This document shows, one piece after another, positions 2,786 through 42,432 of a stretch of 45,086 bases of DNA; positions within the stretch are counted from its first letter, which is position 1, and every line of letters starts with the position of its first letter. The notes under the pieces are model-generated. The model did no database searches. It was not told the origin of the DNA and saw nothing but the letters and a program-made list of their open reading frames with translations. The stretch is from Lachnospiraceae bacterium. Lineage in GTDB: Bacteria > Bacillota > Clostridia > Lachnospirales > Lachnospiraceae. The stretch lies in contig SVDL01000008.1 in NCBI GenBank assembly GCA_015057835.1, positions 1 to 45,086 of the forward strand. Direction: 5' to 3'. The position numbers and the translations under genes were made by a program.

Positions 2786-2802
2786 TGTTTCGGTTTGAAA
2801 CG
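2786..2802. promoter_or_regulatory. Putative operator 1 (TGTTTC-N5-GAAACG)
   Basis: Inverted repeat with 6-bp arms and a 5-bp spacer in the divergent gap between the E2-E1 operon and the PrpR-type regulator. Its centre is 60 bp from a second copy at 2846-2862. The arm-spacer-arm layout resembles sites of Fis-helix regulators such as NtrC or TyrR. Binding by the neighbouring regulator is inferred. Confidence 0.5.
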
Positions 2803-2830
2803 ATTTTTTACATTTTCTTTGATCTTGGTT

Positions 2831-2859
2831 TTGTCTTGCGAAATTTGTTTCATTATGAT
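2831..2859 (+). promoter_or_regulatory. Promoter of the PrpR-type regulator
   Basis: TTGTCT (2831-2836), 17 bp, TATGAT (2854-2859): a fair sigma-A match driving the regulator at 2957. The -10 box lies inside operator 2, which would allow autoregulation. Confidence 0.45.
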
Positions 2860-2862
2860 ACA
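2846..2862. promoter_or_regulatory. Putative operator 2 (TGTTTC-N5-GATACA)
   Basis: Second copy of the dyad in the divergent gap, one mismatch from the perfect TGTTTC/GAAACA pair. It covers the -10 box of the regulator promoter. The same two half-sites with a different spacer sequence recur at 42416-42432. Confidence 0.5.
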
Positions 2863-2956
2863 CTTCTTTCGGGCTGTTCCGGCTTCGCGAGATTGCATTT
2901 TCCGCTGATCTACCGTGATACAGTCACAGATCAAATTCATTTTCAAAGGAGTTCAC

Positions 2957-4720
2957 ATGAAGGTTCTCGCCATCGTACCCTATCCGGAACTCGGCACCCT
3001 GATCCAGGAATCCGCGGAGCGGTATCCGGACATGGAAGTGACAACATTCGTCGGCTACTACGGCAACGCAATGGCTTACCTCACCACCTACCCGAAAAAC
3101 CGGTTCGACATGATTATTTCCAGAGGCGGCACAACAGGTCTTCTTATGGAAAAAGTCAGGATTCCCGTGATCAATATCAGGCTCTCCCCCATTGATATTG
3201 TCCGTGTTCTTCTGCAGACACAGCCTCTGCAGCTCAAGACTGCCGTTATCACCTATTCCGATATAGCGGAGCTGTTCACATCCCTCGCGGAATCGCTTGG
3301 CATCGACATTTCCGTCTATCCTTTTGACACGCCTGACCGAATCGACTCATTAGTGGAGAAATGCCGCCGGGACGGCTGCCGGATCGTGATCGGCGGTGCA
3401 ATGGCAAGAGACGTCTGTCTCTCCCAGGGACTGCAGTTCTTTCTGATCTCCTCCGGTCGGGAGGCGATCGAGGAATGTCTCGCTCTCGCCCACAGAACCT
3501 ACGAGGCTGGAAAGGCCATGTCCGAGCGGGCGGATCTTTTTGAACAGCTTGCGGATCTCAACGACGCGCCGACGCTCCTCTATGACGACGCCGGATCTCT
3601 CCGTTTTGCGAACACGGCCGCATGGGCGTTGTTCGGCAGGGAAGAGCATTCCATGAAGCGGATCGAGGAGACGATCCCGATGCTGGAGAAGGAAGGGCAG
3701 CTGCATCTCGTCCAGAAGATCGGCTCCTATTACTATAAGCTGAACGGGCACCGCTTCCTGATCGACGGAAAAGCGTACTCCTCCTTTGACCTGCATTTCC
3801 GCTCCCCGGATTACCGGCCGGCCTCTTTTACACGGGTCAAAAGTCCCGCCGAGGTGGAATCCCTGATCTCCGCATGCACCTATTCGGATCTTCTTGCCGC
3901 TCCCTACGCGGAAGATCTTAAGGCCGCCGCGTCATCAGGGCTCACGGTCCACATCCGCGGTGAAGTCGGCACCAAAAAAGACCTCTTCGCACACATCGTG
4001 CACAGAGAGATCAACGGTGCTTCCTCCTTCGTGCACATTTCCTGCAGAAATGTCACCGAAAAGGGCTGGCTGACACTCCTTCGCAAATCAGCCTCCCCAC
4101 TCTACGGGACCAGCTATACCATTTTTTTCGAGGATATTGACATGCTCTCCCTGCCGATGCAGTCGGAGCTCGTTGATTATATAAGGGACACAAAACTCAC
4201 CAGCCGCCACCGCGTCATCAGCTGCGCCCACACGGATCTCTCCGAGTCGGTCGCTTCCGGTGCTTTTCACGAAGATCTTTATCTTCTACTGTCCGGCTAC
4301 ACGATCACGATGTATCCTCTGGCGGCGCGCAGAAAAGACATTCCCGCATTCCTGACACAGCTGCTCCCGGTCTACAACGATCAGTTTTCGAGATTTGTGA
4401 TCGGATTTTCCAAAGATGCCCTCTCTCTTCTCACAGCGTTTAATTGGCCGCTCAATCTCACACAGATGGAGACCACCGTCCGGCAGCTCGTGACACAGAC
4501 AGACGGCTCCTACATCTCCGCGGATTCCGTGCGCGCCGTCCTTAGAAATGCGCCGGATTTTGCTACTCTTTCCACTTTTGAGCTCTCCGGGACTCTCGAT
4601 GAGATCGAGAAGAGGATCATCACCCGGATCCTGAAAGAGGAAAATATGAACCAGAGCGCCGCCGCGAAGCGCCTCGGCATCGGGAGAAGCACGCTCTGGA
4701 GGAAACTGAACGGAAAATAG
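2957..4720 (+). CDS. PrpR-type regulator with degenerate AAA+ domain
   Basis: 587 residues. ATG 2957 is chosen over an upstream in-frame start because AAAGGAG sits 5 nt before it. Residues 1 to ~180 match the PrpR_N sensor domain (ISRGGTTGLL, IVIGGAMA), followed by a PAS-like segment (~195-290). The remnant of a sigma-54 activator AAA+ domain spans ~330-540, and a Fis-type helix-turn-helix lies at ~553-587 (NQSAAAKRLGIGRSTLWRKL). Walker A reads GEVGTKKD from residue 335, where GETGTGKE is usual. The GAFTGA loop and about 20 surrounding residues are absent; the Walker B region is FFEDID. It is therefore unlikely to remodel sigma-54 holoenzyme and may act on sigma-A promoters, as TyrR does. It is divergent from the E2-E1 operon and convergent with the TRAP genes. 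The ligand is probably a small organic acid, by family. Confidence 0.85.
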   Translation: MKVLAIVPYPELGTLIQESAERYPDMEVTTFVGYYGNAMAYLTTYPKNRFDMIISRGGTTGLLMEKVRIPVINIRLSPIDIVRVLLQTQPLQLKTAVITYSDIAELFTSLAESLGIDISVYPFDTPDRIDSLVEKCRRDGCRIVIGGAMARDVCLSQGLQFFLISSGREAIEECLALAHRTYEAGKAMSERADLFEQLADLNDAPTLLYDDAGSLRFANTAAWALFGREEHSMKRIEETIPMLEKEGQLHLVQKIGSYYYKLNGHRFLIDGKAYSSFDLHFRSPDYRPASFTRVKSPAEVESLISACTYSDLLAAPYAEDLKAAASSGLTVHIRGEVGTKKDLFAHIVHREINGASSFVHISCRNVTEKGWLTLLRKSASPLYGTSYTIFFEDIDMLSLPMQSELVDYIRDTKLTSRHRVISCAHTDLSESVASGAFHEDLYLLLSGYTITMYPLAARRKDIPAFLTQLLPVYNDQFSRFVIGFSKDALSLLTAFNWPLNLTQMETTVRQLVTQTDGSYISADSVRAVLRNAPDFATLSTFELSGTLDEIEKRIITRILKEENMNQSAAAKRLGIGRSTLWRKLNGK

Positions 4721-4765
4721 GAGGCCAATGGAGACGGTTCTTTTGGGGCCCGTCAAAGCACAAAA

Positions 4766-4793
4766 CAGCCACTGTCCGGCAAGACAGTGGCTG
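4766..4793. terminator. Bidirectional terminator between regulator and TRAP operon
   Basis: An 11-bp perfect stem (CAGCCACTGTC / GACAGTGGCTG) with a 6-nt loop, flanked by CACAAAA and TTTGTG arms. It serves the convergent genes ending at 4720 and 4821. Confidence 0.85.
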
Positions 4794-4820
4794 CATTTGT
4801 GTTTTGGGATATTGTCCGTT

Positions 4821-6122
4821 TTATGCTGCGCCGTAGATCAGGGAGACAAGGCCCGTGGTCAGGAACGGTACATATGTCAGCAGGATCAGTTCCAGGATAA
4901 GGACAGCATAGAACGGTATCGATTCCTTGATGAAGTCCTTGATCGGACACCCCGTGACGTTGCAGGTTACGAACATCAGTGTTCCCATCGGCGGAGACAG
5001 CGCTCCGATCGACATATTGAAAATGAACGCCATCGCGAAGTTGATCGGATGAATGCCGTATTCGAGAGCGATCGGATAAAGCAGCGGGACCAGGATGATC
5101 ATGATCGCGTTGCCTTCCATCAGCATACCGCAGATGAGAAGGAAAATGTTGACGAGAAGCAGGAATACATATTTGTTGCTGGTGACACCCATCATCCAGG
5201 CGGTCAGGTGCTGCGGGACCTGTTCCTTGGAAAGAACCCAGGAAAGCGCGGATGCAGCGCCGATGATCAGCATGATGGAAGAGGTGGAAAGAACAGTCTC
5301 TTTCATGCCCTGGACGAATTTCTTCCAGGTCAGCTCTTTGTAGATCAGGCCGAGGATGATCGAGTAAACGACCGCGACAGCACCGGCTTCGGTAGCCGTC
5401 ATAACGCCGATACGGATACCGCCGATGATGATGATCGGCAGGCACATCGGAGCGATGGAGCGGCGAACGATCCTTCCGGCCTCTCCCTTCGGGAGATGCT
5501 GTCCCTTCGGACGGGTCGGCTTGTAGCCTCTCTTATGGGAAATGATGGAAACCGTGATCATTTCACCGGCGCAGAGCATGATGCCGACGCCGATACCGGA
5601 AACGAACAGTTTACCGATCGAATAGTTCGCGAGGGATCCGAAAAGGATCATAGCGATTCCGGGCGGGATCAGCGGTGTGATCATGGCGGATGCTGCCGTG
5701 ACGACAGAAGCGAACGCATTGGACATGCCCTTTTCTCTCATCGGCGGAACCAGCAGTTTTGCTTCCATGGAAGCATCTGCGAGGTTGGAGCCGGAGAGAC
5801 CGCCCATGAGGGTCGACAGAAGGACGTTGACCTGCGCAAGGCCGCCCCACAGTCTTCCTGTCAGCAGGTCGCACAGTTCCATGATACGGCTTGAAACACC
5901 GGAGTGGTTCATGAATGTGCCCGCCGCGACAAAGAATGGAATCGCGAGAAGCGACGGTGCCTGAATACCGGAGATCAGTCTCTGGCCGAGGATCATGGAG
6001 TTGACGCCCGGATTCATGAAGAAATATACCGCGCTGCCCGCGATAACCGCCAGGTATACCGGGATCTTAAGGAACAAAAGAACGAGCATTACGATCAATG
6101 CAATAGCAATCGCTGTCTTCAT
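4821..6122 (-). CDS. dctM: TRAP transporter large permease DctM
   Basis: 433 residues of strongly hydrophobic sequence with about 12 membrane segments. It has the DctM-family features of the first helices (LLFLKIPVYLAVIAGSAVYFF) and the segment GLSGSNLADASMEAKLLVPPM. It is the ion-coupled channel subunit of a tripartite carboxylate/sugar-acid importer in the cytoplasmic membrane. Its ATG overlaps the DctQ stop (ATGA), so the two are translationally coupled. It is the last gene of the operon, ending at a shared terminator. Confidence 0.95.
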   Translation of the reverse strand: MKTAIAIALIVMLVLLFLKIPVYLAVIAGSAVYFFMNPGVNSMILGQRLISGIQAPSLLAIPFFVAAGTFMNHSGVSSRIMELCDLLTGRLWGGLAQVNVLLSTLMGGLSGSNLADASMEAKLLVPPMREKGMSNAFASVVTAASAMITPLIPPGIAMILFGSLANYSIGKLFVSGIGVGIMLCAGEMITVSIISHKRGYKPTRPKGQHLPKGEAGRIVRRSIAPMCLPIIIIGGIRIGVMTATEAGAVAVVYSIILGLIYKELTWKKFVQGMKETVLSTSSIMLIIGAASALSWVLSKEQVPQHLTAWMMGVTSNKYVFLLLVNIFLLICGMLMEGNAIMIILVPLLYPIALEYGIHPINFAMAFIFNMSIGALSPPMGTLMFVTCNVTGCPIKDFIKESIPFYAVLILELILLTYVPFLTTGLVSLIYGAA

Positions 6123-6649
6123 CAGTCGTACACCTCCTCTTCTTCCTCCGGTTCTTTGCCGAGGCTCAGTCCGAAGATCTCTCTCAGATAATATACGACC
6201 ATGCTGACAAGCATAAGGACGTTGCCGATCGGAACGACGCCGTATACATATTTATAGGAAACACGCAAAAGAGTTGCGATTTTATTCGTACTCACAAGCT
6301 GCATATAATAGCGGTTGCTCTGATAGATCAGATAGATCATGATGAGGAGCGAACACAGAAATGCAAAAATCTCTGCCGCCTTTTTCGCATTTCCCTTAAG
6401 AGAATCGACGATAATTTCGATCGCAACATGGGAACTGTGCCGGAAGGCAGCGCCGGCTGAAAGATACACAATCCACAGGAACAGGAAAAGCTGAAGCTCA
6501 TCAACCCAGGTGATCGGGCTGCGCATCACGTAACGCATAAAAACGTTGACTACCGTGATTCCTAGAAGCACCAACATAATAATACTGGCTACATAGATAT
6601 CAAGCGAGCCAAGGAACTTGAGCACCTTGTTCTCTTTTTTATTCTCCAT
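6122..6649 (-). CDS. dctQ: TRAP transporter small permease DctQ
   Basis: About 175 residues with four membrane helices. The family hallmarks are VFMRYVMRSPITWVDEL after helix 1 and LWIVYLSAGAAFRHSSHVAIE. An open frame continues upstream, but the start used here begins MENKKENK. It is preceded by AAAGGA and lies after the intercistronic hairpin; the upstream extension would run through the DctP stop. The C-terminus is acidic. It partners DctM and DctP. Confidence 0.93.
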   Translation of the reverse strand: MENKKENKVLKFLGSLDIYVASIIMLVLLGITVVNVFMRYVMRSPITWVDELQLFLFLWIVYLSAGAAFRHSSHVAIEIIVDSLKGNAKKAAEIFAFLCSLLIMIYLIYQSNRYYMQLVSTNKIATLLRVSYKYVYGVVPIGNVLMLVSMVVYYLREIFGLSLGKEPEEEEEVYD

Positions 6650-6674
6650 ATGCCGGTCCTTTCTTTTTAACAGA

Positions 6675-6704
6675 AGACGGCTGCCGCCAAAGCGGCGGCC
6701 GTCT
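6675..6704 (-). terminator. Intercistronic hairpin dctP/dctQ
   Basis: Stem AGACGGC-x-GCCGC / GCGGC-x-GCCGTCT with a 4-nt loop and no real U-tract. Hairpins here commonly let the binding protein be made in excess over the permeases, by attenuation or 3'-end protection. That role is inferred. Confidence 0.65.
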
Positions 6705-6746
6705 CTTATTGCGGGTTGCAAAAAGCTAGTTCTGGAAACTACCGCA

Positions 6747-7889
6747 TCAGCCGATCGCGTTGACCTGCTCGATGATGATGTCACGGAGATTCTCTCTCCA
6801 ATTCGCGGTAACTTCCGGATCGGAATACAGACCATCGACGGAATCGATGAATTTCTGCTTTTCAGCATCATCAAGCTCGATGACCTCGACGCCGTTGTCC
6901 TTCATTTCCTGGATGAACTTCTCGGTCAGTTCGACCTGTGCCTTGTTGTTGGCTTCGCCGCCGAAATCGCCGGCTTCGGTCAGCCACTGCTGCTGCTGTT
7001 CGGTCAGGCTGTTCCAGACATCGTTGCTCATGACGAACTGTGTCAGAACGAACAGGTGCTCGGTCATGGTGAGGTATTTCGCAACTTCATAATAAGTCTG
7101 GCCATAAAGAGTAGCGATCGGGTTTTCCATACCTTCGATGGTGCCCTGCTGGGTAGCTGTGTAGACATCGCCGAGAGCCATGCCGGTCGGAGCAGCGCCC
7201 ATGTATTCGAAGGTCTTGACCTGGACGACGTTCTGCGGTGTACGGATGATCATGCCGGAAAGGTCATCAAATGTGCGGACCGGTTTCACAGTCATGAGGT
7301 TGCGGACGCCGTATTCCCAGTTCGTGGTGATGACATGAAGGCCGTTCTGTGCAAGAAGGTCCATCTGCTCCTGCCACCATTCGGTCTGCGGAACTTTGTG
7401 AAGGTCGTCATAGCTTGTGAACAGATACGGAGCACCGAAGATCGACATTTCCGGAGCGCCGTAGTCGCCGAGGAAGGAACCGTCGGTAATGTACGCAACC
7501 GGTTCACCCATCTGCATCATGTCCATCGCGTCAACTTTTCCGCCGAGCTGGCTGGACGGATAAAGTTCGATCTTGATGGAGCCGTCAGAGATCTCATCGA
7601 GTTTCTCTTTCCAGGCATTGCAGCCGATATCCAGCGGCTCACCCGGGTTGTTTTCGTAACCGACCTGGATCGTGATCACATCGCCGGTCGCTTCTGTTGC
7701 AGCTTCTTCTGCCGGAGCTTCTTCTTCCGAAGCAGCTTCTTCAGCCGGAGCAGCTTCCTCTGCCGGAGCAGCTTCTTCTTTGGATTCAGCCGGAGCTTCC
7801 GCCGCGGAAGATGCAGCGCCGCCGCCGCAGGCGACGAGGCTTGCCACGCACATAACGCTCATGACAAGTGCAAGAATTTTCTTTTTCAT
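6747..7889 (-). CDS. dctP: TRAP substrate-binding lipoprotein DctP
   Basis: 380 residues. A lipoprotein signal peptide ends at LVAC (Cys ~21), followed by a ~45-residue Ala/Glu/Pro linker. The DctP domain starts at about residue 70 (ITIQVGYENNPGEPLDIGC). The carboxylate-binding arginine region is visible as GMIIRTPQN, and the motif DVYTATQQGTIEGMENP is typical. It captures an acidic substrate outside the membrane and delivers it to DctQM. It lies 128 bp after an alcohol dehydrogenase gene and is preceded by AAGGAGG. Its N-terminal region through the first part of the linker is nearly identical to that of the unrelated RbsB-type protein at 20760-21935. Confidence 0.95.
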   Translation of the reverse strand: MKKKILALVMSVMCVASLVACGGGAASSAAEAPAESKEEAAPAEEAAPAEEAASEEEAPAEEAATEATGDVITIQVGYENNPGEPLDIGCNAWKEKLDEISDGSIKIELYPSSQLGGKVDAMDMMQMGEPVAYITDGSFLGDYGAPEMSIFGAPYLFTSYDDLHKVPQTEWWQEQMDLLAQNGLHVITTNWEYGVRNLMTVKPVRTFDDLSGMIIRTPQNVVQVKTFEYMGAAPTGMALGDVYTATQQGTIEGMENPIATLYGQTYYEVAKYLTMTEHLFVLTQFVMSNDVWNSLTEQQQQWLTEAGDFGGEANNKAQVELTEKFIQEMKDNGVEVIELDDAEKQKFIDSVDGLYSDPEVTANWRENLRDIIIEQVNAIG

Positions 7890-7918
7890 TAGTTGTCCTC
7901 CTTAAAATGACATATCGC

Positions 7919-7936
7919 CACACACCCTATTGTGTG
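7919..7936 (-). promoter_or_regulatory. Leader stem-loop upstream of dctP
   Basis: Perfect dyad CACACA-N6-TGTGTG, 30 nt upstream of the dctP start. On the mRNA strand it folds as a 6-bp stem with loop AUAGGG. A near copy (loop AUAAAG) precedes the other solute-binding lipoprotein gene at 21978-21993. It may be an RNA element or an operator. Confidence 0.5.
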
Positions 7937-7957
7937 ATGGTTTCATTTTGCTGCTGC

Positions 7958-8017: not shown

Positions 8018-9064
8018 TCAATAATCTTCTTCGAACGGGAAGAGAATGAATTTTCCGCCTTCTTTCTTGCGGAACATATCAAATGCCTTCTCCCAGTCCG
8101 CAAGCGGCATTCTGACGTCAGCAATCTTGTCGACTTTGACTTTGCCTCTCGCGAGAAGGTCCAGAGCCTGTTCCCAGCTGGCCTTGCGGGATCCCAGGGA
8201 TCCGGTCACGATGGGTTCTCTGTAGTTCAGAGCTTCGACGTAGAACGGGATCTCCGGTCTGCCCATGCCGATCTGTACGAAGTGGCCGCGGCGTTTGATA
8301 TTGTGAAGCGCGGAATTGATGCCGTACTGGTTGCCGGAGCATTCCAGGACGACGTCGACGCCGTATCCGCCGGTCAGCTCGTTGACGAGATCATCGAGCG
8401 GTCTTTCATTGATGTTGCAGGTATAATCCGCGCCGAGTTCCTTGGCAAGCGCAAGTCTTTCGACGTCAACGCCTGTACCGGAAACGATCACGCGCGCGCC
8501 GAAAGATTTGGCGACCTGCATGGTCATAAGACCGATCGGGCCCGGGCCGTTGACAAGGACGAGGTCCGTCGGAAGGATCGTCGCAAGATCGAATACCGCA
8601 TGGCATACGCATGCAAGCGGTTCCGTCAGTGCTGCGGAAATGTCATCGACCGTTTCCGGGATCGCATGGACGCGTTCCGCGGGAACGACAGTATAGTTGG
8701 TGAAAATGCCGTTGTACCAGTAGCCGAGAGTCTTTCTCTCACTGCAGAGATTGTAGTAGCCCTCGCGGCAGGCTTCGCATTTTCCGCAAAAAGAATAAGC
8801 GGTCTCGGAGACGACGCGGTCGCCGACTTTCCATCCCTCAACGCCTTCGCCGACTTCCGCGATGACGCCGGAGAATTCGTGTCCGGTAACGACGGGCGGG
8901 CGGACCGGAATCGCGATGTCGCTGTCATAGATGTGCAGATCGGATCCGCAGATGCCTGCTGCAACGACTTTGATCTTGATCTGGCCTGGTCCTGCCTTCG
9001 GTTCTTCGACTTCTCGGATCTCCATATTGCCGGGTTCCGGTGCGTATTTCACAAGTGCGCGCAT
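8018..9064 (-). CDS. Zinc-dependent medium-chain alcohol/polyol dehydrogenase
   Basis: 348 residues of the sorbitol/threonine dehydrogenase group of MDRs. The catalytic zinc ligands are C39 (GICGSDLHIY) and H62-E63 (TGHEFSG). The structural zinc lobe is CGKCEACREGYYNLC, and the nucleotide-binding motif is VLVNGPGPIGLM. It should oxidise a secondary hydroxyl of a polyol or sugar acid with NAD(P). ATG 9064 has AGGAGG six nt upstream. It lies between the transaldolase-like gene and dctP in one long operon, so a role in catabolism of the TRAP substrate is likely. Confidence 0.9.
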   Translation of the reverse strand: MRALVKYAPEPGNMEIREVEEPKAGPGQIKIKVVAAGICGSDLHIYDSDIAIPVRPPVVTGHEFSGVIAEVGEGVEGWKVGDRVVSETAYSFCGKCEACREGYYNLCSERKTLGYWYNGIFTNYTVVPAERVHAIPETVDDISAALTEPLACVCHAVFDLATILPTDLVLVNGPGPIGLMTMQVAKSFGARVIVSGTGVDVERLALAKELGADYTCNINERPLDDLVNELTGGYGVDVVLECSGNQYGINSALHNIKRRGHFVQIGMGRPEIPFYVEALNYREPIVTGSLGSRKASWEQALDLLARGKVKVDKIADVRMPLADWEKAFDMFRKKEGGKFILFPFEEDY

Positions 9065-9171: not shown

Positions 9172-10227
9172 TCAGATCCATCTCGCGGATTTGCGGTTTG
9201 ATTTGTAGACCTCAAGCGGTGCCCAGCCTGTCTCCGTGAACTGGGAGAGGAGCTTCTGCATAACGCCGAAGGTGATGTACTCTTCCTTCTTCATGCCGTC
9301 CGGCTCATAAGCTTTGATGAACTCCGGCATCTTAAGGAGGCCTTCCATGATATCGTCTGCCACCGGCTCATTGATCCGCTCGACGCGTTCCGGATCGTCC
9401 GCAAGGACCATTTCCTGCACGCGGGTCGTGATGGAAAATGTCACATCCGCGCCGGCAAGCTGTACGAGATGGTGGGATCCGCGGAGTCCTGCCGGCATAA
9501 TGATCGCGTGATAGCCGCGCTCTTTGAAAATGCCGTAGGAGCGCTTTGCAACGGCAATGCCGGCGCTCGTGATCGTGCGCTCGTCAAGTCCGAGCTTCAT
9601 ATCGGAGGCGACATCCCTCAGATAATCGTCGATGCGGCCGACCTGCTGCACCGCGTAGCACGGAGCGACTTTCACGCCGTTTTCGATCGCTTTCTTTCTG
9701 CCTCTCTCATAGGCCTCGGCGACGTCGATCGCCTGGGCGACGGAGACATTTAATGTCGCGCAGATCGGAATGCCTTCCGATGCGATCTGTTCCATGACTT
9801 CGATGCCGGAGCGTGTCGCCGGAAGCTTGATAGCGATGTTCGGCGCCCAGGAGCGGTATCTTCTCGCCTGCGCGAGCATATTTTCATAATCGCCCGCCCA
9901 GCTCGGATTCAGCTGTCCGAGAGCGTAGCCGTGCTGTCCGTTGGTCGCTTCATAGATCGGCCACACCTGTTTCGCGGCTGATGTAGCCACCAGTTTCAGG
10001 AGAGCTTCCGCTCTCTCTACATAATCAAGATCCTGGGAGATCTGATTCACTCTCTCCTCCCAGATCTCCGGCTGCATGTTGAATGTGCGGAAGGTAAGAA
10101 CCGGATTCGTCGTGACGCCTTTTGCATGTCTCGTCAGCGCGAGTTCGATCTCATCGGGATTTCCCGAATCATGCCACCAGCGGGTAGGGGTCTCTTTTTC
10201 GAGCCAGTCAAAATAGGTATCTGCCAT
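9172..10227 (-). CDS. Transaldolase-family aldolase
   Basis: 351 residues. The start at ATG 10227 is set by AAAGGAG seven nt upstream; a longer frame reaches into the SDR gene. Class I aldolase features of the transaldolase family are present: GVTTNP at 37-42, the Schiff-base lysine K134 in AIKLPAT, and CATLNVSVAQA downstream. Such enzymes cleave or transfer a dihydroxyacetone-type unit. The context of dehydrogenases, UxaA and a TRAP importer, with no KDG kinase or KDPG aldolase nearby, suggests it cleaves a pathway intermediate, perhaps unphosphorylated. An authentic pentose-phosphate transaldolase, or a sulfosugar transaldolase (SftT-like), cannot be excluded from sequence alone. Confidence 0.85.
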   Translation of the reverse strand: MADTYFDWLEKETPTRWWHDSGNPDEIELALTRHAKGVTTNPVLTFRTFNMQPEIWEERVNQISQDLDYVERAEALLKLVATSAAKQVWPIYEATNGQHGYALGQLNPSWAGDYENMLAQARRYRSWAPNIAIKLPATRSGIEVMEQIASEGIPICATLNVSVAQAIDVAEAYERGRKKAIENGVKVAPCYAVQQVGRIDDYLRDVASDMKLGLDERTITSAGIAVAKRSYGIFKERGYHAIIMPAGLRGSHHLVQLAGADVTFSITTRVQEMVLADDPERVERINEPVADDIMEGLLKMPEFIKAYEPDGMKKEEYITFGVMQKLLSQFTETGWAPLEVYKSNRKSARWI

Positions 10228-10297
10228 GTTTACTCTCCTTTGCAGCTGCCGGTTTGCAGGGGAACCTTCTGTTTCCCTTGTCTTTGAAACTTTTTTA

Positions 10298-11044
10298 TTA
10301 TCCGCAGTACATACCGCCGTTGACGCTGATCGCCTCTCCGGTGATGAAGTCATTTTCATCCGCCGCAAGGAACGCGACCGCCTGGGCGATGTCTTCCGGC
10401 TGTCCGAGTCTTCCCAGCGGGATCCTGTCCTTCAATCCGTCGATCTGATCCTGGGTCCATGCCTTCATGATCGGGGTCTCAATAGTGCCCGGGCATACGG
10501 CATTTACCGTAATACCTCTCGGCGCGAGCTGTCTCGACATGCCGTAGGTCAGGGAAAGAATACCTCCCTTTGACGCCACATAGGACATTCCCGACGCGTA
10601 GGAGCCCATTTTGCCCGCCACGGAGGAAATATTGATGATCCTCGGATGCGGACGGCCCTCAATGTAGGGAAGTACTTTCTGTGTGCAGAAGAAAAGACCT
10701 TTCAGATTGATTCCGAGCACGAGGTCCCATTCCTTCTCGGTGACTTCTTCAATTTTATTGGAGAACATGATGCCCGCGTTGTTCACGAGGATATCGATGC
10801 CGCCCCAGACTTCGGAGGCTTCTTTCAGGCTCTCTTCAATACTTTCGATACGGGAGACGTCACAGTATCCCGCTGCCGCGGTATATCCCTGTTCCACAAG
10901 GTGCGCCGCGCTCTCCTGTGCTTTCTCCTTATTGACATCAGAGAGAAATACCTTCGCACCTCTTTTGGCAAGTTCCGTCGCGATCGCGTACCCGATTCCC
11001 TGTGCGCCGCCTGTAACAACAGCGATCCGTCCTTCTACGCCCAT
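10298..11044 (-). CDS. Short-chain dehydrogenase/reductase
   Basis: 248 residues, a classical SDR. It has the cofactor motif TGGAQGIG (11-18), NNAG (88-91) and the catalytic triad S141, Y155, K159 (SYVASK). The C-terminus ISVNGGMYCG is typical of sugar and 3-oxoacyl reductases. It is the first gene of the SDR, transaldolase-like, alcohol dehydrogenase, dctPQM operon, driven by a clear promoter at 11156-11184. It probably interconverts a keto and hydroxyl group of the imported substrate. GGAGAAATGCT precedes the ATG. Confidence 0.92.
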   Translation of the reverse strand: MGVEGRIAVVTGGAQGIGYAIATELAKRGAKVFLSDVNKEKAQESAAHLVEQGYTAAAGYCDVSRIESIEESLKEASEVWGGIDILVNNAGIMFSNKIEEVTEKEWDLVLGINLKGLFFCTQKVLPYIEGRPHPRIINISSVAGKMGSYASGMSYVASKGGILSLTYGMSRQLAPRGITVNAVCPGTIETPIMKAWTQDQIDGLKDRIPLGRLGQPEDIAQAVAFLAADENDFITGEAISVNGGMYCG

Positions 11045-11155: not shown

Positions 11156-11184
11156 AGTATATGTGTTTAAAAAACAACTGTCAA
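11156..11184 (-). promoter_or_regulatory. Sigma-A promoter of the SDR-to-TRAP operon
   Basis: TTGACA (11179-11184), 17 bp, TATACT (11156-11161): near-consensus, with about 105 nt of leader. The putative operator at 11268-11284 is centred roughly 125 bp upstream of the expected start, a distance typical of enhancer-type regulators. Confidence 0.8.
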
Positions 11185-11267: not shown

Positions 11268-11284
11268 TGTTTCATTTTGCAACA
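11268..11284. promoter_or_regulatory. Putative operator 3 (TGTTTC-N5-GCAACA)
   Basis: Third copy of the one-mismatch dyad seen at 2786 and 2846, here upstream of the SDR-to-TRAP promoter. It would link the transporter operon to the PrpR-type regulator. Confidence 0.5.
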
Positions 11285-11394: not shown

Positions 11395-11420
11395 AAAAAA
11401 GGGAGCGGAAATCCGCTCCC
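11395..11420 (-). terminator. Terminator of the LgoD-like gene
   Basis: On the minus strand, a 9-bp stem GGGAGCGGA / TCCGCTCCC followed by six T. It lies 40 bp after the stop at 11460 and separates this gene from the SDR operon. Confidence 0.9.
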
Positions 11421-11459
11421 TGCTGTTTCTGTTTCCGTATTGACGCACAGCTCCCCGAC

Positions 11460-12491
11460 TCAGAACTTCAGAATAACCTTCAGCATCTGTCCCGCGTTCT
11501 TGTCAAACTCCTCAAACGCGCGCGGCGCCTCGTCAAAATCATAGACGTTGGTGACGATCTTGCTGATGTCGACGCGGCCTTCCTTCACGGCGTCGATGAG
11601 TTCCAGGAAATCATCCTTCAGGGCGTTTCTGGAACCGTAGATATTCAGCTCTTTCTTCTGGATCGTGGAGAACTGGAAGTCCAGGTTCTTCTTGCCGATG
11701 CCGATGACGGCGATATTTCCGCCGAATGCGCAGGCGTCGATGCAGTTCTGGAACGTGGACGGAAGACCTACGGCTTCCACCGTGACGTCAAATCCCTTGC
11801 CGTCCGTGATCTTCGCGACTTCTTCGGTGAAGTGTTCCGGAGAAGTGTTCAGGATCTTTCCGTCAAGTCCGAAATTGTCTACCGCGTAGTCGAGTTTCGC
11901 GGGAGCGACGTCGGCGATATAGACCTTCGCGCCTTTCATCTTCGCGGAGATCGCCGCGAGAACGCCGATGGTGCCGGCGCCGACAACGAGGACGAGATCC
12001 CCTTCCTGTACTTTGCAGCGCTTGATGCCGTGATAGGAAATGCAGAACGGCTCGATCAGCGTCAGTTTTTCGGGCGGAAGTCCCTTGCCGTCGTAAATGC
12101 GCTCGATCGGCATGGTGATATACTCGCAGAACGCACCGTCGCGCTGCGCGCCCATCGTCTCGTTGTGTTCACAGCAGTTGACAAGACCGTGTTCACAGGG
12201 ACGGCATTTTCCGCAGTTAAAATACGGATTGCAGGTAACGATCATGCCGGGTTTCAGGCCTTTGTCATTTTCATCGATTTCTACGATCTCCGCGGCGAAC
12301 TCGTGGCCGGGTCTGCGCGGGTATTCGCAGTAGGCGAAAGTTCCGCGATAGGTTCCGAGATCGCTTCCGCAGATGCCTACATATCTCAGTTTCAGCAGCG
12401 CCTCCCCTTCCTTGCGTACCGGGACGGGGATATCTTTCATGATCGCGGTGCCGGGCTCTGTGATCAGCACGGATTTCATCATTTCACTCAT
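11460..12491 (-). CDS. Zinc alcohol dehydrogenase resembling L-galactonate 5-dehydrogenase
   Basis: 343 residues from ATG 12491, chosen because GGAGG lies six nt upstream; the longer frame would start inside its own promoter. Catalytic zinc ligands are C41 (GICGSDLG) and H63-E64 (PGHEFAA). The zinc lobe is CGKCRPCEHGLVNCC, and the Rossmann motif is VVGAGTIGV. The segments LIEPFCISYHGIKR and KKELNIYGSRNA resemble E. coli LgoD (YjjN) as I recall it. LgoD makes D-tagaturonate from L-galactonate upstream of UxaA, and here the gene is divergent from a uxaA-like gene. The substrate could equally be another hexonate. Confidence 0.85.
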   Translation of the reverse strand: MSEMMKSVLITEPGTAIMKDIPVPVRKEGEALLKLRYVGICGSDLGTYRGTFAYCEYPRRPGHEFAAEIVEIDENDKGLKPGMIVTCNPYFNCGKCRPCEHGLVNCCEHNETMGAQRDGAFCEYITMPIERIYDGKGLPPEKLTLIEPFCISYHGIKRCKVQEGDLVLVVGAGTIGVLAAISAKMKGAKVYIADVAPAKLDYAVDNFGLDGKILNTSPEHFTEEVAKITDGKGFDVTVEAVGLPSTFQNCIDACAFGGNIAVIGIGKKNLDFQFSTIQKKELNIYGSRNALKDDFLELIDAVKEGRVDISKIVTNVYDFDEAPRAFEEFDKNAGQMLKVILKF

Positions 12492-28074: not shown

Positions 28075-29833
28075 TGTCTTTCACCTCCATGTGCGCGTTC
28101 CACATCTTCTCATAGAGCCCGTGCTTTGCAAGGAGCTCTGCATGTTTTCCTTCCTCGCAGATCGCGCCGTTTTCGATCACATAGATCCGGTCGGCGTCCA
28201 TGACCGTGCTGAGCCTGTGAGCGATGACGATCAGGGTCTTTCCCTCCGTCAGCTTCGAGACGGAGCGCTGGATAACGGATTCATTTTCGGGATCGGTGTA
28301 AGCGGTCGCCTCGTCGAGAATGACGACCGGAGCGGCCTTCAGCATCGCCCTCGCGATGGAAATGCGCTGTCTCTCGCCGCCGGACAGATGTCCGCCCGAG
28401 GTGCCGACAACCGTCTCGTACCCGTTCTCAAGGCTCATAATGAAGTCGTGGCAGCCGCTCATCTTCGCAGCCTGCTCGACCTCTTCATCTGTCGCGGAAG
28501 GTTTTCCGAGACGGATGTTCTCCCGGACCGTCATATTGAAGAGGTAATTGTCCTGTGAAACAAACGCGACTTTATCCGCGTAGGCTTCCTGCGGAATATT
28601 CCGGATATCGGTCCCTCCAAGGGAGATGCTGCCTCCCGTCACATCCCAGAGGGATGCGATCAGACGGGCGATGGTGCTCTTGCCGCTGCCGCTCGGGCCG
28701 ACCAACGCGACGAAGCTTCCCTCGGGGATCTCCATGGAGACGCCGTGCAGGACTTCTTTTCCGCCCCCCTCTGACTGCCCGGCGCTGTAGGAAAAGCGGA
28801 CATCCTTCAGGACAAGATCATTTTTCTCCGGCGCGCCGCCTTCTTTCGGACGCTCCATTTCCGGAGCTTCCAGAATACTGCGTACTTCCCCGAAGATCGT
28901 CCCCATCGTGCGGATATCGTCGGAATAGCTCATCATCGTGACCAGCGGAGTAATGAGACCCACCGACAAAATGATCACCATGACAAAATCCTGTGCGGAG
29001 AGACTTCCGTTCCGCACGAGCAGCCCGCCGATCGGGAGGACCGATACCATCGTGGCGGGCATGAGGACCATCGCGAAGGTCATAGGCAGGATGCTGGCGC
29101 GCATCCAGTCGATGAAACTGTGCGCCGCTTCGTACGCGTCGTGAACGAAGCGCTCGTAGCTCGATTTCGTCTTGCCGAAGACCTTGATGACCTGAATGCC
29201 GTTGATATATTCTACGGCGGTATCATTGAGGGCTTTCGTCGCAGTGATCGTGTGCTGATAAAAATCGCCGCTTCCGACCATCATGAGCACATAGCAGAAC
29301 ATGCCGATCGGAACTGTGGCGAGACTCGCGAGCCCCATGCGCCAGTCGATCGTAAAAATGTAGATCACCATGATCACCGGGATCAGCAGATTCGCGGTGA
29401 ACTCCGGCACAATGTGCGCGAGCGTCGTCTCAATACTGTCGATACGCTCGATGAGCGTGTTTTTCAGGGCGCCGCTGCTCCGGGTGAGAACTTCGCCGAG
29501 CGGCATGCGTGCCAGTTTCTCCGTGCACCGCTTGCGGATCTCTCCCAGCACGGCAAAAGTCGCTCTGTGAGAGGTGGCGGTAGACAGCGCATGACACAGG
29601 ACCCGTCCGAGCCACAGTCCTGCCATGATAAGGCACCGGGTCAGATAGAAGGAAAAATCACGCTGCCCGTCCATGAGGCCGTGTACAACGCCTACTACCA
29701 CAAAATACGGCAGGACGGAGAACGCGACGCCGATCACGGCGATGATCACGCTCAAAACATATTGTCCCCCGTGATCGCCTGTCTGTCCCAGCACCCAGGC
29801 GATGGGGGATGGGGCTTTCTTTTTTGTTTCCAT
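28067..29833 (-). CDS. Exporter-fold ABC transporter, ATP-binding/permease subunit A (siderophore type)
   Basis: 588 residues. Membrane domain ~1-310, then the ATPase domain: VGPSGSGKST, LSGGERQR, VILDEATAYTDPENE. Both this and its partner keep catalytic motifs, unlike many heterodimeric drug exporters with one dead site. The ATG at 29833 has GGAGG six nt upstream. It is preceded in the operon by a 26-residue membrane peptide and, further upstream, a DtxR-like site. Confidence 0.9.
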   Translation of the reverse strand: METKKKAPSPIAWVLGQTGDHGGQYVLSVIIAVIGVAFSVLPYFVVVGVVHGLMDGQRDFSFYLTRCLIMAGLWLGRVLCHALSTATSHRATFAVLGEIRKRCTEKLARMPLGEVLTRSSGALKNTLIERIDSIETTLAHIVPEFTANLLIPVIMVIYIFTIDWRMGLASLATVPIGMFCYVLMMVGSGDFYQHTITATKALNDTAVEYINGIQVIKVFGKTKSSYERFVHDAYEAAHSFIDWMRASILPMTFAMVLMPATMVSVLPIGGLLVRNGSLSAQDFVMVIILSVGLITPLVTMMSYSDDIRTMGTIFGEVRSILEAPEMERPKEGGAPEKNDLVLKDVRFSYSAGQSEGGGKEVLHGVSMEIPEGSFVALVGPSGSGKSTIARLIASLWDVTGGSISLGGTDIRNIPQEAYADKVAFVSQDNYLFNMTVRENIRLGKPSATDEEVEQAAKMSGCHDFIMSLENGYETVVGTSGGHLSGGERQRISIARAMLKAAPVVILDEATAYTDPENESVIQRSVSKLTEGKTLIVIAHRLSTVMDADRIYVIENGAICEEGKHAELLAKHGLYEKMWNAHMEVKDNG

Positions 29834-29851
29834 TTAAAACCTCCGGATTTA

Positions 29852-37626: not shown

Positions 37627-37670
37627 AATGTACCTGCTTTCTTTCTATTGCACTTCATATTGCTCTAAAG

Positions 37671-38444: not shown

Positions 38445-38450
38445 GCGTAG

Positions 38451-38479
38451 ATTTTACCGCAAACCCGTTCTTTTGTGAA
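38451..38479 (-). promoter_or_regulatory. Promoter of the SpoU-family gene
   Basis: TTCACA (38474-38479), 17 bp, TAAAAT (38451-38456), then 6 nt, then ATG. Start of transcription is expected at or within a base of the A of the ATG. Confidence 0.6.
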
Positions 38480-38517
38480 GGTGGAAAGATGTTGAAATAT
38501 CATAAGGGACAAAACAA

Positions 38518-38545
38518 GGGGAGCGCGGGCTTACCACTGCTCCCC
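38518..38545 (-). terminator. Terminator of the aldo/keto reductase gene
   Basis: Stem GGGGAGC / GCTCCCC with a 14-nt loop, followed on the minus strand by TTGTTTTG. It lies about 30 bp after the stop at 38576. Confidence 0.75.
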
Positions 38546-38575
38546 CCTATTTCATGAACCGGTTTTTTATATTCC

Positions 38576-39694
38576 TCAGCCCTCGTACGCCCTTGCTTTC
38601 TCAAGCAGTTCAATAATCGGCAGATGCTGCGGGCATACGCCCTCGCACTGTCCGCACTGGACGCAGTCACTGGCTTTTCCTTTATTAAGCGTGACCATTC
38701 CGTATTCGCGGATGGTGCGGAATTCCGGGCTTCCCTTCGAGCGGTTGACGACCTTGAAGATCTCCGGGATCGGGATCTCCATCGGGCAGCCCTCCGTGCA
38801 GTAATGGCACGCCGTGCAGGGGATGGATTTGTCATCTTCGATCGCCTGCATAGCTTCTTTGATCACTTCCTGCTCATGTTCATCGAGCGGCTTGAAATCC
38901 TTCATATAGCTCAGATTATCTTCCATCTGCGCAAGACTGCTCATGCCGCTGAGAGCTGTGATGATTCCATCCTGGCTCGCGACAAAGCGGACCGCCCAGC
39001 TGGAGTAGGACATCCCGTTATTTTCGCGGTCAAATATCGCCTTCACCGCAGGAATCGGATCAGCGAGAATGCCGCCCTTGATCGTCTCCATGACCGTCAC
39101 GGGTTTTCCGTGCTTTCTGCAGATCTCCAGACACTCGCGGGAGGCAACACCCGGGTTGTCCCAGTCGGCGTAATTGATCTGAAGCTGGACAAATTCCACA
39201 TCCGGATGTGCGGTGAGCAGCTGTTCAAGAAGCTCCGGATCCGCGTGGAATGAGAATCCGTAATGCTTAATGAGTCCCTTCTCCTTCTGCTCTTTCACAA
39301 AATCCCAGAGGTGATAATTGTCATAGTTTTTGTAATTTCCTCTCTGCAGGGCGTGCAGAAGATAATAGTCAAAATAGCCCGCTCCCGTCCTTTCAAGAGA
39401 AGTGTAAAACTCCGCTTTCGCACTTTCCTCATCATGACAGAGGTCGCCGAACGCGATCAGCTTGTCCGCAAGTGTATAACTGTCACGGGGATAGCGCTCC
39501 ACCAGTGCTTTCCGGATCGCTTCCTCTGAACCCGCATATGCATAAGCTGTGTCAAAATACGTCCCGCCCGCCGCAATAAAGCGGTCGACCATCTCCGAGG
39601 TCTGCGCGACGTCGATCGTACCGTCCTCAAGCCTCGGAAGTCTCATGAGGCCGAAGCCCAGTTTAAAAGTATCTTTTCCCAAATAATCAGCCAT
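38576..39694 (-). CDS. Aldo/keto reductase with C-terminal 4Fe-4S domain
   Basis: 372 residues from the ATG preceded by AAAGGGG. The TIM-barrel AKR domain (~1-270) has GFGLMRLP, the catalytic-type FDTAYAYAGSEEAIRKAL and YTLADKL. The C-terminus carries two cysteine clusters, CTACHYCTEGCP and CVQCGQCEGVCP, which should bind two 4Fe-4S clusters. Such proteins are common in anaerobes and probably take electrons from ferredoxin-like carriers. The substrate is unknown. It is a single gene with its own terminator. Confidence 0.93.
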   Translation of the reverse strand: MADYLGKDTFKLGFGLMRLPRLEDGTIDVAQTSEMVDRFIAAGGTYFDTAYAYAGSEEAIRKALVERYPRDSYTLADKLIAFGDLCHDEESAKAEFYTSLERTGAGYFDYYLLHALQRGNYKNYDNYHLWDFVKEQKEKGLIKHYGFSFHADPELLEQLLTAHPDVEFVQLQINYADWDNPGVASRECLEICRKHGKPVTVMETIKGGILADPIPAVKAIFDRENNGMSYSSWAVRFVASQDGIITALSGMSSLAQMEDNLSYMKDFKPLDEHEQEVIKEAMQAIEDDKSIPCTACHYCTEGCPMEIPIPEIFKVVNRSKGSPEFRTIREYGMVTLNKGKASDCVQCGQCEGVCPQHLPIIELLEKARAYEG

Positions 39695-39767
39695 GTTTTC
39701 CCCTTTCACTTGTGTTGCCTGTGGAATGGAATATGCCTGTAAATCCCGGCTTTTTCACATGTCTATA

Positions 39768-39796
39768 ATTATATGGAATTTAGGCCTTTGATGCAA
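39768..39796 (-). promoter_or_regulatory. Possible promoter of the aldo/keto reductase gene
   Basis: TATAAT (39768-39773) with a weak TTGCAT -35 (39791-39796) inside the end of the CoA-ligase gene. No terminator is visible after that ligase, so read-through is also possible. Confidence 0.4.
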
Positions 39797-41450
39797 TCAG
39801 TTCCGCCGCCAGCTCCCGAAGGCCCGCTTTTTTGATCTTGTTGGAAGCGGTGCGCGGCCAGGTCTTGCTGTCGGAGAAAAAGAAGTACTGCGGGATCTGG
39901 AATTTGGCCAGATGTTCTTTGCAGAAAGCGCGGAGAACTTCCTCCGTCACGGTCTCCGGATCCGTCACGTCCACAAATGCGGCGCCCACCGCGTTGCAGC
40001 GCGGGTCAGGCACGCCGACGCATTCAACGGCGACGACGCCGGGGCAGTCCGCGATCACGCGGTCGAGGAACTGCGGGGAGACATTTTCCCCGTTGATCTT
40101 GTAAACATCGCCGTAGCGGCCGCTGAAGTACAGGTAGCCGTTGTGGTCGATCATGCCGATGTCATTGCTCCGGAACCAGCCGTCTTCGGTAAAGGAAGCC
40201 GCCGTCACTTCGGGATTCTTATAATAGCCGGGCGTCGTCTGCGGCCCGCGGTACTGGATCTCGCCCTGTTTCCCGGTTCCGAGCACTTTTCCGGTGTCGA
40301 AATCGCAGATCCGGATCTCCATCGCGGCTCCGTATTCCGGATCCGTCTCGGTGATGCCGCCCAGTTTTTTCCTGCCGTTGCAGTGCGCGGCGCTGCCGAC
40401 CATGTCCTCCGGCGAGACCATCGTCACCGAAGAAGCGCACTCGCTCATCCCGTATCCGTTGGAAAGATCGGTGACGCCCAGTACTTCCATGCCCTTCTTC
40501 CAGATCCATGTCGGGCAGTTCGTCCAGTAGGCCGCGTGCATGTCCGGCAGGTCGCCGGGCTTCAGATTGCCGTCATTAAGAAGCTTCTGGATCGTGATCG
40601 GCATGCACTGCATGTCGTTGATCCGCTTCTCCTTCATAACGGAAACAGCATAGGAAACATCAAATTTCTTTGTGAGAAATACCGCCGTCCCGGCCGCTAT
40701 CATACAGGTCATAAGGCCGCCGACATAGGCCATGACATGGTACAGCGGCACCGGCAGAAAAACTCTCCTGCCGATCTCGTAGCACCTCGTATAGGCGGTG
40801 GCGAAGGAATCCCTCATGATCATATCGTGCAGCTCGATCACGCCTTTCGGCTCCGACGTGCTTCCGGAGGTAAATAGAATATCGCACATCGAGAACGGAT
40901 CGCCGTGCTCTTTGGCATATTTATAAATATCATCGTCCGGCAGCTCTTCCGCTTCCCTCAGAATGTCCACGGAGCAGACCGTCTTGACCGCGTCTTCAAA
41001 CGGCAGTTTCTCCCCGATCCAGATAAAGCTCTTCAGGTTCGGAACCGCGTCCGGATCCAGAGAGAGACGTTCCCGCAGGACAATATACTGCGCGTCGGAA
41101 CGGGACAGAATGGAATGCAGCTGGATTCTGCCGATCGCCGGATTGACGGGGATCTTGACGGCGCCGATCGCCGCGGCGGCAAATGTCAGGAAGACAAATT
41201 CCGGACAATTTGTGAGCAGCAGGGCTACGTGATCCCCCGCCCGGACGCCGAGCGACATTAAAGCTTTTGCGTAGCGCAGGGATTCTCTGCGCACATCTTC
41301 GTAGGTAAAGACATCGTGGTCAAAGATCACGAATTCATTTTTCGGATAGCGGTCTGCTATATACAGAAACCGCTCCCAGATCGTGGCAGGGATCCATCTC
41401 GGATATAGGCGGTCCAGAGCCTGTCTGTTTTCTTCTACTGTCCCCTTCAT
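39780..41450 (-). CDS. AMP-binding acyl-CoA ligase
   Basis: 556 residues of the ANL superfamily. The A3 phosphate loop FTSGSTSEPKG, A5 GYGMSECASS, A8 SGRYGDVYKINGENVSP and the A10 lysine in ASNKIKKAG are all present. It activates a carboxylic acid to its CoA thioester with ATP. The acid is unknown; similarity of length and motifs to medium-chain, carnitine-type (CaiC) and aryl ligases is noted. AAAGGAG lies upstream of ATG 41450. The cupin and the small protein upstream on the same strand may belong to the same unit, and that unit carries a putative PrpR-type operator. Confidence 0.9.
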   Translation of the reverse strand: MKGTVEENRQALDRLYPRWIPATIWERFLYIADRYPKNEFVIFDHDVFTYEDVRRESLRYAKALMSLGVRAGDHVALLLTNCPEFVFLTFAAAAIGAVKIPVNPAIGRIQLHSILSRSDAQYIVLRERLSLDPDAVPNLKSFIWIGEKLPFEDAVKTVCSVDILREAEELPDDDIYKYAKEHGDPFSMCDILFTSGSTSEPKGVIELHDMIMRDSFATAYTRCYEIGRRVFLPVPLYHVMAYVGGLMTCMIAAGTAVFLTKKFDVSYAVSVMKEKRINDMQCMPITIQKLLNDGNLKPGDLPDMHAAYWTNCPTWIWKKGMEVLGVTDLSNGYGMSECASSVTMVSPEDMVGSAAHCNGRKKLGGITETDPEYGAAMEIRICDFDTGKVLGTGKQGEIQYRGPQTTPGYYKNPEVTAASFTEDGWFRSNDIGMIDHNGYLYFSGRYGDVYKINGENVSPQFLDRVIADCPGVVAVECVGVPDPRCNAVGAAFVDVTDPETVTEEVLRAFCKEHLAKFQIPQYFFFSDSKTWPRTASNKIKKAGLRELAAELIASKA

Positions 41451-41567
41451 AGTACTGGTATCTCCTTTAATATCTGCCGGAAGAACGCTTCTTTCATCTC
41501 CGAAATTTCCTGAAGAAGCGATCTTTCAACCGCAGGTTTTTCAAATCCTTCCCATAACCGCACAACA

Positions 41568-41594
41568 ACTCACCCTCTTACATGCAGGGTGAGT
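41568..41594. terminator. Hairpin between the small unknown gene and the CoA ligase
   Basis: A 9-bp stem ACTCACCCT / AGGGTGAGT with a 9-nt loop and a weak U-tract. It could be an attenuator in front of the ligase gene. Confidence 0.55.
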
Positions 41595-41624
41595 CGTTTG
41601 AAAATGCATCCTCGGCCGTTTAGA

Positions 41625-41888
41625 TTACCTTCTTCTGCCTGCCGGAAGGATCCTGTTCCCCGCCTCATCCGTGACGGAGAATGAGTAGTGAATGCCTCCC
41701 ATAATAGAGGAAGACCCGGCGCTGTAATTTTTCAGCATTTCCGTCCAGCAGGGATTGATCTGCATTTTGGGCGCCTCTTTGAGCGCATCCTGCGCGACAA
41801 GTTCCGAGAGGGTCAGTTCTCTGCCATTTTCCGCGCGGAATCTGATCTGAAGCGCCGAACCGTCATTCTGTGTGATCATAGACTGCAT
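41625..41888 (-). CDS. Small uncharacterised protein
   Basis: 87 residues, soluble, no recognised domain. It starts MQSMITQNDGSALQIRF and ends in a basic GRRR. AAGGGGAG lies before the ATG, and an extended -10 (TGTTATAAT, -10 box 41902-41907) lies so close that the leader would be under 10 nt. It lies 74 bp downstream of the cupin and 174 bp upstream of the CoA ligase. Confidence 0.6.
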   Translation of the reverse strand: MQSMITQNDGSALQIRFRAENGRELTLSELVAQDALKEAPKMQINPCWTEMLKNYSAGSSSIMGGIHYSFSVTDEAGNRILPAGRRR

Positions 41889-41962
41889 GTTCTCCCCTTA
41901 AATTATAACAGGTAATCCTGCCGTATAAAAGCATTAATTGACTTTTATTCAATGACTTTCGT

Positions 41963-42364
41963 TTACTTGTCTTCCGTAAATTCACACTTGTACTCAATGC
42001 TGTCATCAAACCAGGCCTCGTGGTCCTTTCTGCCCGGTGTGAAGACGTCCATCGCCTGGCAGTCTTCCAGTGCGATTCCCGTGTGCATCGCCCATGCGGG
42101 GACGTAAATGGTATCGCCCGGTTCAAGGATATGAGTCTCGCCGTCAACAGTGTACTGCATTCTGCCTTTGAAACAGATCGTAATCTGTTCCGGCGCGTGA
42201 TGGTGCTCTTTCCATGTGAAGCCTTCCGGATAATCGACCATGATGGCGCTGAAGCTGCCGTTAAAGCAGGACGGTCGCACGATGGCCGGCCTCTTTGTGC
42301 TGTCAGTTCTGTCCTGGTCGCTGTGGATGGGGGCTTCTGATAAGTCATAGTAGATCTGTTTCAT
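41963..42364 (-). CDS. Single-domain cupin
   Basis: 133 residues. The first cupin motif is visible as EHHHAPEQITICFKGRMQY (metal ligands His, His, Glu) and the second as GDTIYVPAWAMHTG (His). Layout resembles KdgF-type proteins that help linearise uronates, and many other small cupins. AAAGGA precedes the ATG. A putative PrpR-type operator lies 52 bp upstream, which would tie it to the sugar-acid cluster at the left end. Confidence 0.88.
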   Translation of the reverse strand: MKQIYYDLSEAPIHSDQDRTDSTKRPAIVRPSCFNGSFSAIMVDYPEGFTWKEHHHAPEQITICFKGRMQYTVDGETHILEPGDTIYVPAWAMHTGIALEDCQAMDVFTPGRKDHEAWFDDSIEYKCEFTEDK

Positions 42365-42415
42365 GGTTGCACGTCCTTTCTTACAATACTTGTTTTCTTT
42401 GGTTGTGTATTATGC

Positions 42416-42432
42416 TGTTTCTGTCAGATACA
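42416..42432. promoter_or_regulatory. Putative operator 4 (TGTTTC-N5-GATACA)
   Basis: Same half-sites and spacing as operator 2 at 2846, about 39 kb away, upstream of the cupin gene and next to a possible -10 box CATAAT (42409-42414). Confidence 0.5.

Follow-up and report, generated by a model that had tools for sequence, protein, structure and literature searches.

Dyads beside a GAFTGA-less PrpR_N regulator gene of a Lachnospiraceae bacterium as probable operators of an apparently sigma-54-independent regulator class

The sigma-54-dependent propionate activator PrpR (TIGR02329) carries, in this order, a PrpR_N domain, an AAA+ domain and a Fis-type helix-turn-helix (HTH). The same domain order is found in P0001, a regulator encoded in the DNA analyzed here, the 45,086-nt SVDL01000008.1 stretch from a Lachnospiraceae bacterium (the window; its host genome, labeled G000, is 2.66 Mb and 91% complete). 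Copies of a dyad, TGTTTC-N5-GAAACA, occur near the P0001 gene and elsewhere in the window, and the initial annotation took four of them for the sites of a PrpR-type regulon. Our comparisons point to three of these dyads, at 2786, 2846 and 11268, as probable operators of P0001, and to the fourth, at 42416 upstream of a cupin gene, as a probable chance match. P0001 matches PrpR_N (PF06506) at 122.2 bits, against a gathering score of 29.1, and an AAA+ remnant and HTH_8 were also matched. It differs from PrpR in that GAFTGA is missing, the match to the PrpR equivalog model is far below its cut-off (119.8 bits against 499.2), no RpoN was found in the genome, and the targets are of a sugar or acid-sugar type. 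The term PrpR-type must therefore be qualified, since the sigma-54 features of PrpR are absent. Another relative of the bacterial enhancer-binding proteins (bEBPs), TyrR of E. coli, has a different sensor domain and works at sigma-70 promoters; its model matches P0001 weakly (69.6 bits, cut-off 576).

Relatives of bEBPs without GAFTGA have been described. NtrC of Rhodobacter capsulatus and Caulobacter and VspR of V. cholerae are reported to act at sigma-70 promoters, and R. capsulatus NtrC is reported to need ATP binding rather than hydrolysis (PMC10274813). P0001 is like these proteins in lacking GAFTGA; NtrC and VspR carry a receiver-type aspartate site, whereas P0001 has PrpR_N in the sensor place and belongs to a class in which the Walker B aspartate is gone. 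For P0001 itself, conserved sigma-A promoters are predicted at the regulator, SDR and ABC importer genes. A survey of sigma-54 regulation in Clostridiales reports TGT-N10-12-ACA sites for fifteen regulator groups, taken only from species with a sigma-54 gene and with GAFTGA checked (Nie 2019, PMC6615313). The dyad studied here fits that layout (TGT-N11-ACA), and several sites per operon are common among the sites given there, but no sigma-54 promoters were seen beside the class described below. Among the open-licence PMC literature matches listed, we found no description of a GAFTGA-less PrpR_N class or of the TGTTTC-N5-GAAACA motif.

With at most one mismatch allowed, the window contains exactly four copies of the dyad, those at the positions reported before, and all four lie between genes that we recognized. 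Dinucleotide shuffles of the window gave a mean of 0.11 such dyads and none of 100 shuffles reached four, in agreement with the earlier estimate of well under one by chance. At up to three mismatches the enrichment was mild (29 in the window, 18.2 expected). The observation that one copy covers the -10 box of the regulator also held, since the TATGAT of the predicted promoter sits inside dyad 2846.

To judge the dyad independently of the window, relatives of the regulator were collected from 99 genomes and from a scan of a species genome collection, of which the best 80 of 551 loci were kept. Three loci with less than 300 bp upstream (L045, L067 and L093) were not counted; the other 77 include the sibling genome UBA1251 and three GAFTGA-bearing loci. 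In 57 of the 77 loci the 400 bp preceding the regulator contained a dyad with no more than two mismatches, against 3 of 77 for the reversed pattern. Later class tests excluded the sibling locus L044, the GAFTGA-bearing loci L079, L091 and L113, and L093 with its short upstream region, leaving 75, and removal of six near-duplicates left 69. When these 69 upstream regions, with neither window nor sibling included, were searched blindly for pairs of spaced 4-mers, TGTT-N9-AACA ranked first (41 of 69, 0.5 expected). A symmetric matrix seeded with this pair settled on 65 of the 69 regions, again without window or sibling in the training. Applied to the window, the matrix placed dyads 2846, 11268 and 2786 first, second and third (Table 1), and the reversed control reached at most 7.0. 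The fourth-best match, 9.0 at 29825-29841, falls where an ABC exporter-like gene begins; being near the level of the reversed control, it was set aside.

In leave-one-out scoring, 62 of 69 regulator upstream regions exceeded 12 bits, against a shuffle rate of 0.8%. Matrix sites above 12 bits numbered 144 in the 69 loci (1.05 Mb). Of these, 142 were intergenic, with 116 lying no more than 400 bp upstream of the regulator and 26 elsewhere between genes, and the remaining 2 fell inside genes, as called by a simple longest-open-reading-frame rule. In six further relatives that do not overlap the training loci (L014-L019), the regulator is preceded by sites of 17 to 25 bits. Judged by their record titles, the dyad-bearing carriers are mostly Firmicutes, with a Treponema among them.

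Conservation in the sibling agrees with the matrix. UBA1251 (G039, the same DNA as L044) is 69% complete and encodes a regulator 77% identical to P0001. Dyad 2846 and the -10 box that it overlaps are unchanged there letter for letter, the counterpart of dyad 2786 is a perfect dyad, and dyad 11268 is kept together with its promoter at nearly constant spacing. The half-site GATACA in dyad 2846 may owe its deviation to its double use as a -10 box. Taken together, the matrix ranks and the conservation in the class and in UBA1251 support the earlier proposal that the dyad is the regulator's operator at the regulator and E2-E1 genes and at the SDR-to-TRAP operon, but not at the cupin gene.

A fifth site was found outside the window. 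Among seven further pattern matches in G000, the one at C6:43872, upstream of a sugar ABC importer binding-protein gene, scored 24.7, and the other six scored -1.6 or less. In UBA1251 the orthologous importer gene lies in the regulator's cluster, beyond transketolase and E1, and has a perfect dyad. C6 at its right end (L146) and the window at its left edge both break off inside the E1 gene, and the two breaks fall about 24 bases apart on the sibling contig, so the C6 site is probably about 5 kb to the left of the window and the catabolic cluster continues onto C6. The ABC importer is a likely member of the regulon that lay beyond the view of the initial annotation. G039 itself has seven pattern matches, four of which are the conserved counterparts of the SDR site, the ABC site and the pair between regulator and E2. 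Another G000 match, C77:5381 (L008 1501), upstream of a ValRS-like gene, recurs in the sibling at G039:C20:1267. It was rejected as an operator by the matrix (-1.6) and sits within a longer inverted repeat, which may instead form a hairpin in the leader RNA. A match to the pattern can thus be conserved in the sibling without being an operator.

We consider it quite likely, from these sequence comparisons, that dyads 2786, 2846 and 11268 and the C6 dyad are operators of P0001, and that P0001 belongs to a clade that apparently no longer uses sigma-54. The regulator would bind TGTTTC-ATTTT-GAAACA palindromes, and its PrpR_N domain may sense a ligand of the sugar-acid type. The 60 bp between dyads 2786 and 2846, a distance that the initial annotation did not mention, is the commonest spacing of the class, in which 20 of 53 spacings between adjacent sites measure 58-63 bp; the pairing of the two dyads suggests cooperative binding of two dimers. 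With all site-pair distances in the class taken together (92 pairs, which are not independent), the vector strength at 10.5 bp was 0.48. Because 60 bp corresponds to 5.7 turns, the mode does not simply equal an integral number of helical turns.

The positions of the dyads relative to the promoters bear on what the regulator does. Measured to transcription starts whose positions are estimates, the center of dyad 2786 is about 63 bp upstream of the putative E2 start, with dyad 2846 about 123 bp from it; the center of dyad 11268 is about 127 bp upstream of the predicted SDR start; and the C6 dyad is about 203 bp from a weaker predicted promoter of the ABC importer gene (9/12, TG-extended) that is conserved in UBA1251. 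Occupation of dyad 2846 would cover the regulator's own -10 box and repress its gene, while the dyads at these upstream distances could activate the divergent E2-E1 operon, the SDR-to-TRAP operon and the ABC sugar importer from predicted sigma-A promoters. That the protein purely represses all targets, with no activation, is a reading that we find rather unlikely. It agrees with the position of dyad 2846, and a lost AAA+ function suits a protein acting as a roadblock; simple blocking is unlikely at the SDR and ABC dyads, which lie so far upstream of conserved predicted promoters, although repression by looping there is compatible with it.

Binding by P0001, with activation as well as repression, also has to be weighed against the possibility that the dyad belongs to another transcription factor sharing the same targets, with P0001 binding elsewhere. 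Controls came from 30 loci of GAFTGA-bearing homologs; two had short upstream regions, leaving 28, all with PrpR_N, among which L199 and L200 look like duplicates. Upstream of these 28 no site above 12 bits and no dyad with two or fewer mismatches was found, the best score being 10.4. The recognition helix of the class is nearly the same as that of these homologs, which would fit ownership of the dyad by some other factor. The dyad nevertheless tracks the regulator class, in 62 of 69 carriers against none of 28 homologs, and its TGT-N11-ACA layout fits the sites reported for the fifteen Clostridiales groups (PMC6615313), and we regard a separate owner as improbable. One specific candidate, the second PrpR_N regulator of the genome (G000:C166), was rejected, with no site nearby and a best score of -0.8. 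This protein (L043 1390-3297) has no recognizable GAFTGA and looks like a member of a different group.

The initial annotation had joined all four window sites, including 42416, into one regulon and thereby tied the cupin and perhaps a CoA ligase to the sugar-acid cluster. Every one of these sites is a single mismatch from the pattern. The cupin site, however, lacks an A/T-rich core and ranks far below the other three (Table 1), the six other genome matches outside the cluster are also rejected by the matrix, and about 0.11 chance matches are expected in a window of this size; at the genome-wide background rate given below, one chance match among four dyads is unsurprising. Cupin homologs were searched in the sibling and five other carrier genomes, and none was found in the incomplete sibling G039 or in G014, G042, G051 and G060, while G057 has one weak homolog (24%). 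The cupin survey covered 23 other cupin-like places in 61 genomes. The nearest relative is a 54% paralog in the same genome (L169), where the matrix reaches at most -2.8 and no site is present. Three remote homologs (32-35% identity) had matches with no consistent placement: those at L153 and L157 were just above 12 bits, downstream of the gene in L153 and about 580 and 820 bp upstream in L157, and an 8.7-bit match lay about 170 bp upstream in L154. On these grounds the cupin was rejected as a regulon member, no support was found for linking it or the CoA ligase to the cluster, and a regulon of all four sites is very unlikely.

We then compared the class with homologs that retain the sigma-54 features. 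GAFTGA was missing from all 78 class members (77 loci and P0001). The Walker A lysine is retained in 72 of the 78, the Walker B aspartate in none and the glutamate that follows it in 2; the Walker A of P0001 itself is degenerate (GEVGTKKD). Retention of the lysine with loss of the aspartate may mean nucleotide binding without hydrolysis. A tree was built from 63 proteins, and the two groups split cleanly in it with support of 1.0. The 37 class members in the tree were the window protein, L044 and 35 of the 69; the 26 GAFTGA-bearing proteins were L022, L079, L091, L113 and 22 of the 30 controls. Of 27 GAFTGA-bearing homologs (L200 was also omitted from this set), 21 had a sigma-54-like promoter, defined by a score of 10 or more, on the downstream side (0.6 expected) and 3 had one upstream (0.5 expected). 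At the class regulators such promoters were found upstream of 0 of 69 (1.4 expected) and downstream of 1 of 69 (1.3 expected), and none was found in the two window intergenic regions. A profile search for RpoN (PF04552) gave no match in G000, and the same search matched in 4 of 14 genomes. Nor was RpoN found in 4 of the 7 other carriers searched (G039, G014, G057 and G051), absences whose weight is limited by the incompleteness of the assemblies. These data suggest a clade whose regulators, made of PrpR_N, pseudo-AAA+ and Fis-HTH, are apparently sigma-54-independent and probably dead as ATPases.

Several observations weigh against this reading of the dyads and of the clade. The plain pattern is not enriched genome-wide in G000, where it matches at 11 places and its reversed control at 9; it is the local cluster of sites that counts. 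Seven of the 69 loci fell below 12 bits in the leave-one-out test (L050, L051, L059, L064, L067, L085 and L116). The E2 promoter consists of a weak extended -10 with no clear -35. The 80 loci were picked by likeness to GAFTGA-less queries, so the absence of GAFTGA from 78 of 78 partly reflects selection. Acidic residues are present at the Walker B columns of P0001 in swapped order, ED for DE, which makes loss of ATPase activity likely and not certain. The gene rpoN is present in three of the seven other carriers (G060, G042 and G095), could be missing from G000 only because the assembly is incomplete, and likewise had no match passing the cut-off in 4 of the 5 genomes without the regulator that the same search covered, so that its loss is common in the genus and not tied to the regulator. 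Finally, the C6 intergenic region has one sigma-54-like match, with a score of 10. An ordinary sigma-54-dependent PrpR at -24/-12 promoters, for which this match and the PrpR_N, AAA+ remnant and HTH_8 domains would speak, is nonetheless the least credible reading, given the missing GAFTGA, the degenerate Walker A, the low equivalog score, the lack of an RpoN match in G000 and the absence of sigma-54-like promoters from the two window regions and of any enrichment in the class.

The scan for the plain pattern was extended to 20 relatives, in which regulator carriers did not stand out among the matches listed. In G024, where no regulator homolog was found, a perfect dyad with an A/T-rich core lies at C53:18822 (TGTTTCTTATTGAAACA).

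More tentatively, and with somewhat less than even confidence, we propose that in a widespread, mostly Firmicutes clade an enhancer-binding protein of the sigma-54 type was turned into a regulator of sigma-A promoters, with loss of GAFTGA and the Walker B aspartate. The dyads from which it would still act are enhancer-like, spaced regularly with a mode of 60 bp, and lie up to about 200 bp upstream, most commonly at genes of four-carbon acid-sugar catabolism. The class offers a natural series for studying the passage from sigma-54 activator to sigma-A regulator. The dyad provides a testable operator for PrpR_N regulators whose domain names imply sigma-54 dependence but which appear not to use it, so that annotation could misread the class, and the predicted targets described below link it to acid-sugar catabolism.

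Table 1. Positions of the dyads, predicted promoters and cluster genes in the window
Feature	Coordinates	Strand	Description
Dyad 1, TGTTTCGGTTTGAAACG	2786..2802	none	between E2 and regulator; score 16.3, rank 3
Dyad 2, TGTTTCATTATGATACA	2846..2862	none	overlaps predicted -10 TATGAT of regulator; score 20.6, rank 1
Dyad 3, TGTTTCATTTTGCAACA	11268..11284	none	upstream of SDR-to-TRAP operon; score 18.0, rank 2
Pattern match upstream of cupin	42416..42432	none	score -3.25, window rank 32
Predicted sigma-A promoter of regulator	2831..2859	+	TTGTCT-17-TATGAT, 9/12
Putative extended -10 of E2-E1 operon	2738..2746	-	TGGTAGCAT; TGATAGCAT in UBA1251; weak, by eye in alignment
Predicted sigma-A promoter of SDR-to-TRAP operon	11156..11184	-	TTGACA-17-TATACT, 11/12; conserved in UBA1251
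Regulator P0001	2957..4720	+	PrpR_N, AAA+ without GAFTGA, Fis-type HTH; Pfam, motif comparison
E1 dehydrogenase	2..1588	-	cut by contig end; profile matches
E2-like lipoyl/E3-binding protein	1601..2680	-	profile matches
TRAP transporter DctM, DctQ, DctP	4821..7889	-	Pfam
Zinc alcohol dehydrogenase	8018..9064	-	Pfam
Transaldolase-like protein (TAL_FSA)	9172..10368	-	profile matches
SDR oxidoreductase	10298..11044	-	first gene of TRAP operon; profile matches

Predicted targets across the family were tallied for 63 of 88 candidate genes; of the 25 omitted, 21 were the regulator itself, called from an earlier start codon, and 4 were genes that are short or lie at a contig end. The commonest was DUF1537, which we take to be a four-carbon acid-sugar kinase, with 26 of the 63 genes matching each of its two domains. 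The others included iron alcohol dehydrogenases (6), zinc alcohol dehydrogenases (6), DctP (3), DHDPS (3) and PdxA (2). The cluster of the window is unlike this norm, with its TRAP, SDR, transaldolase-like and E1/E2 genes and with the transketolase halves on C6. A strong inverted repeat with a minus-strand T-run at 11400-11421 could serve as the terminator of a zinc dehydrogenase gene that ends near 11460. In L147 (G060) and L148 (G014), judged from the sequence starts only, the regulator is divergent from operons encoding DUF1537-like kinase and PdxA-like proteins.

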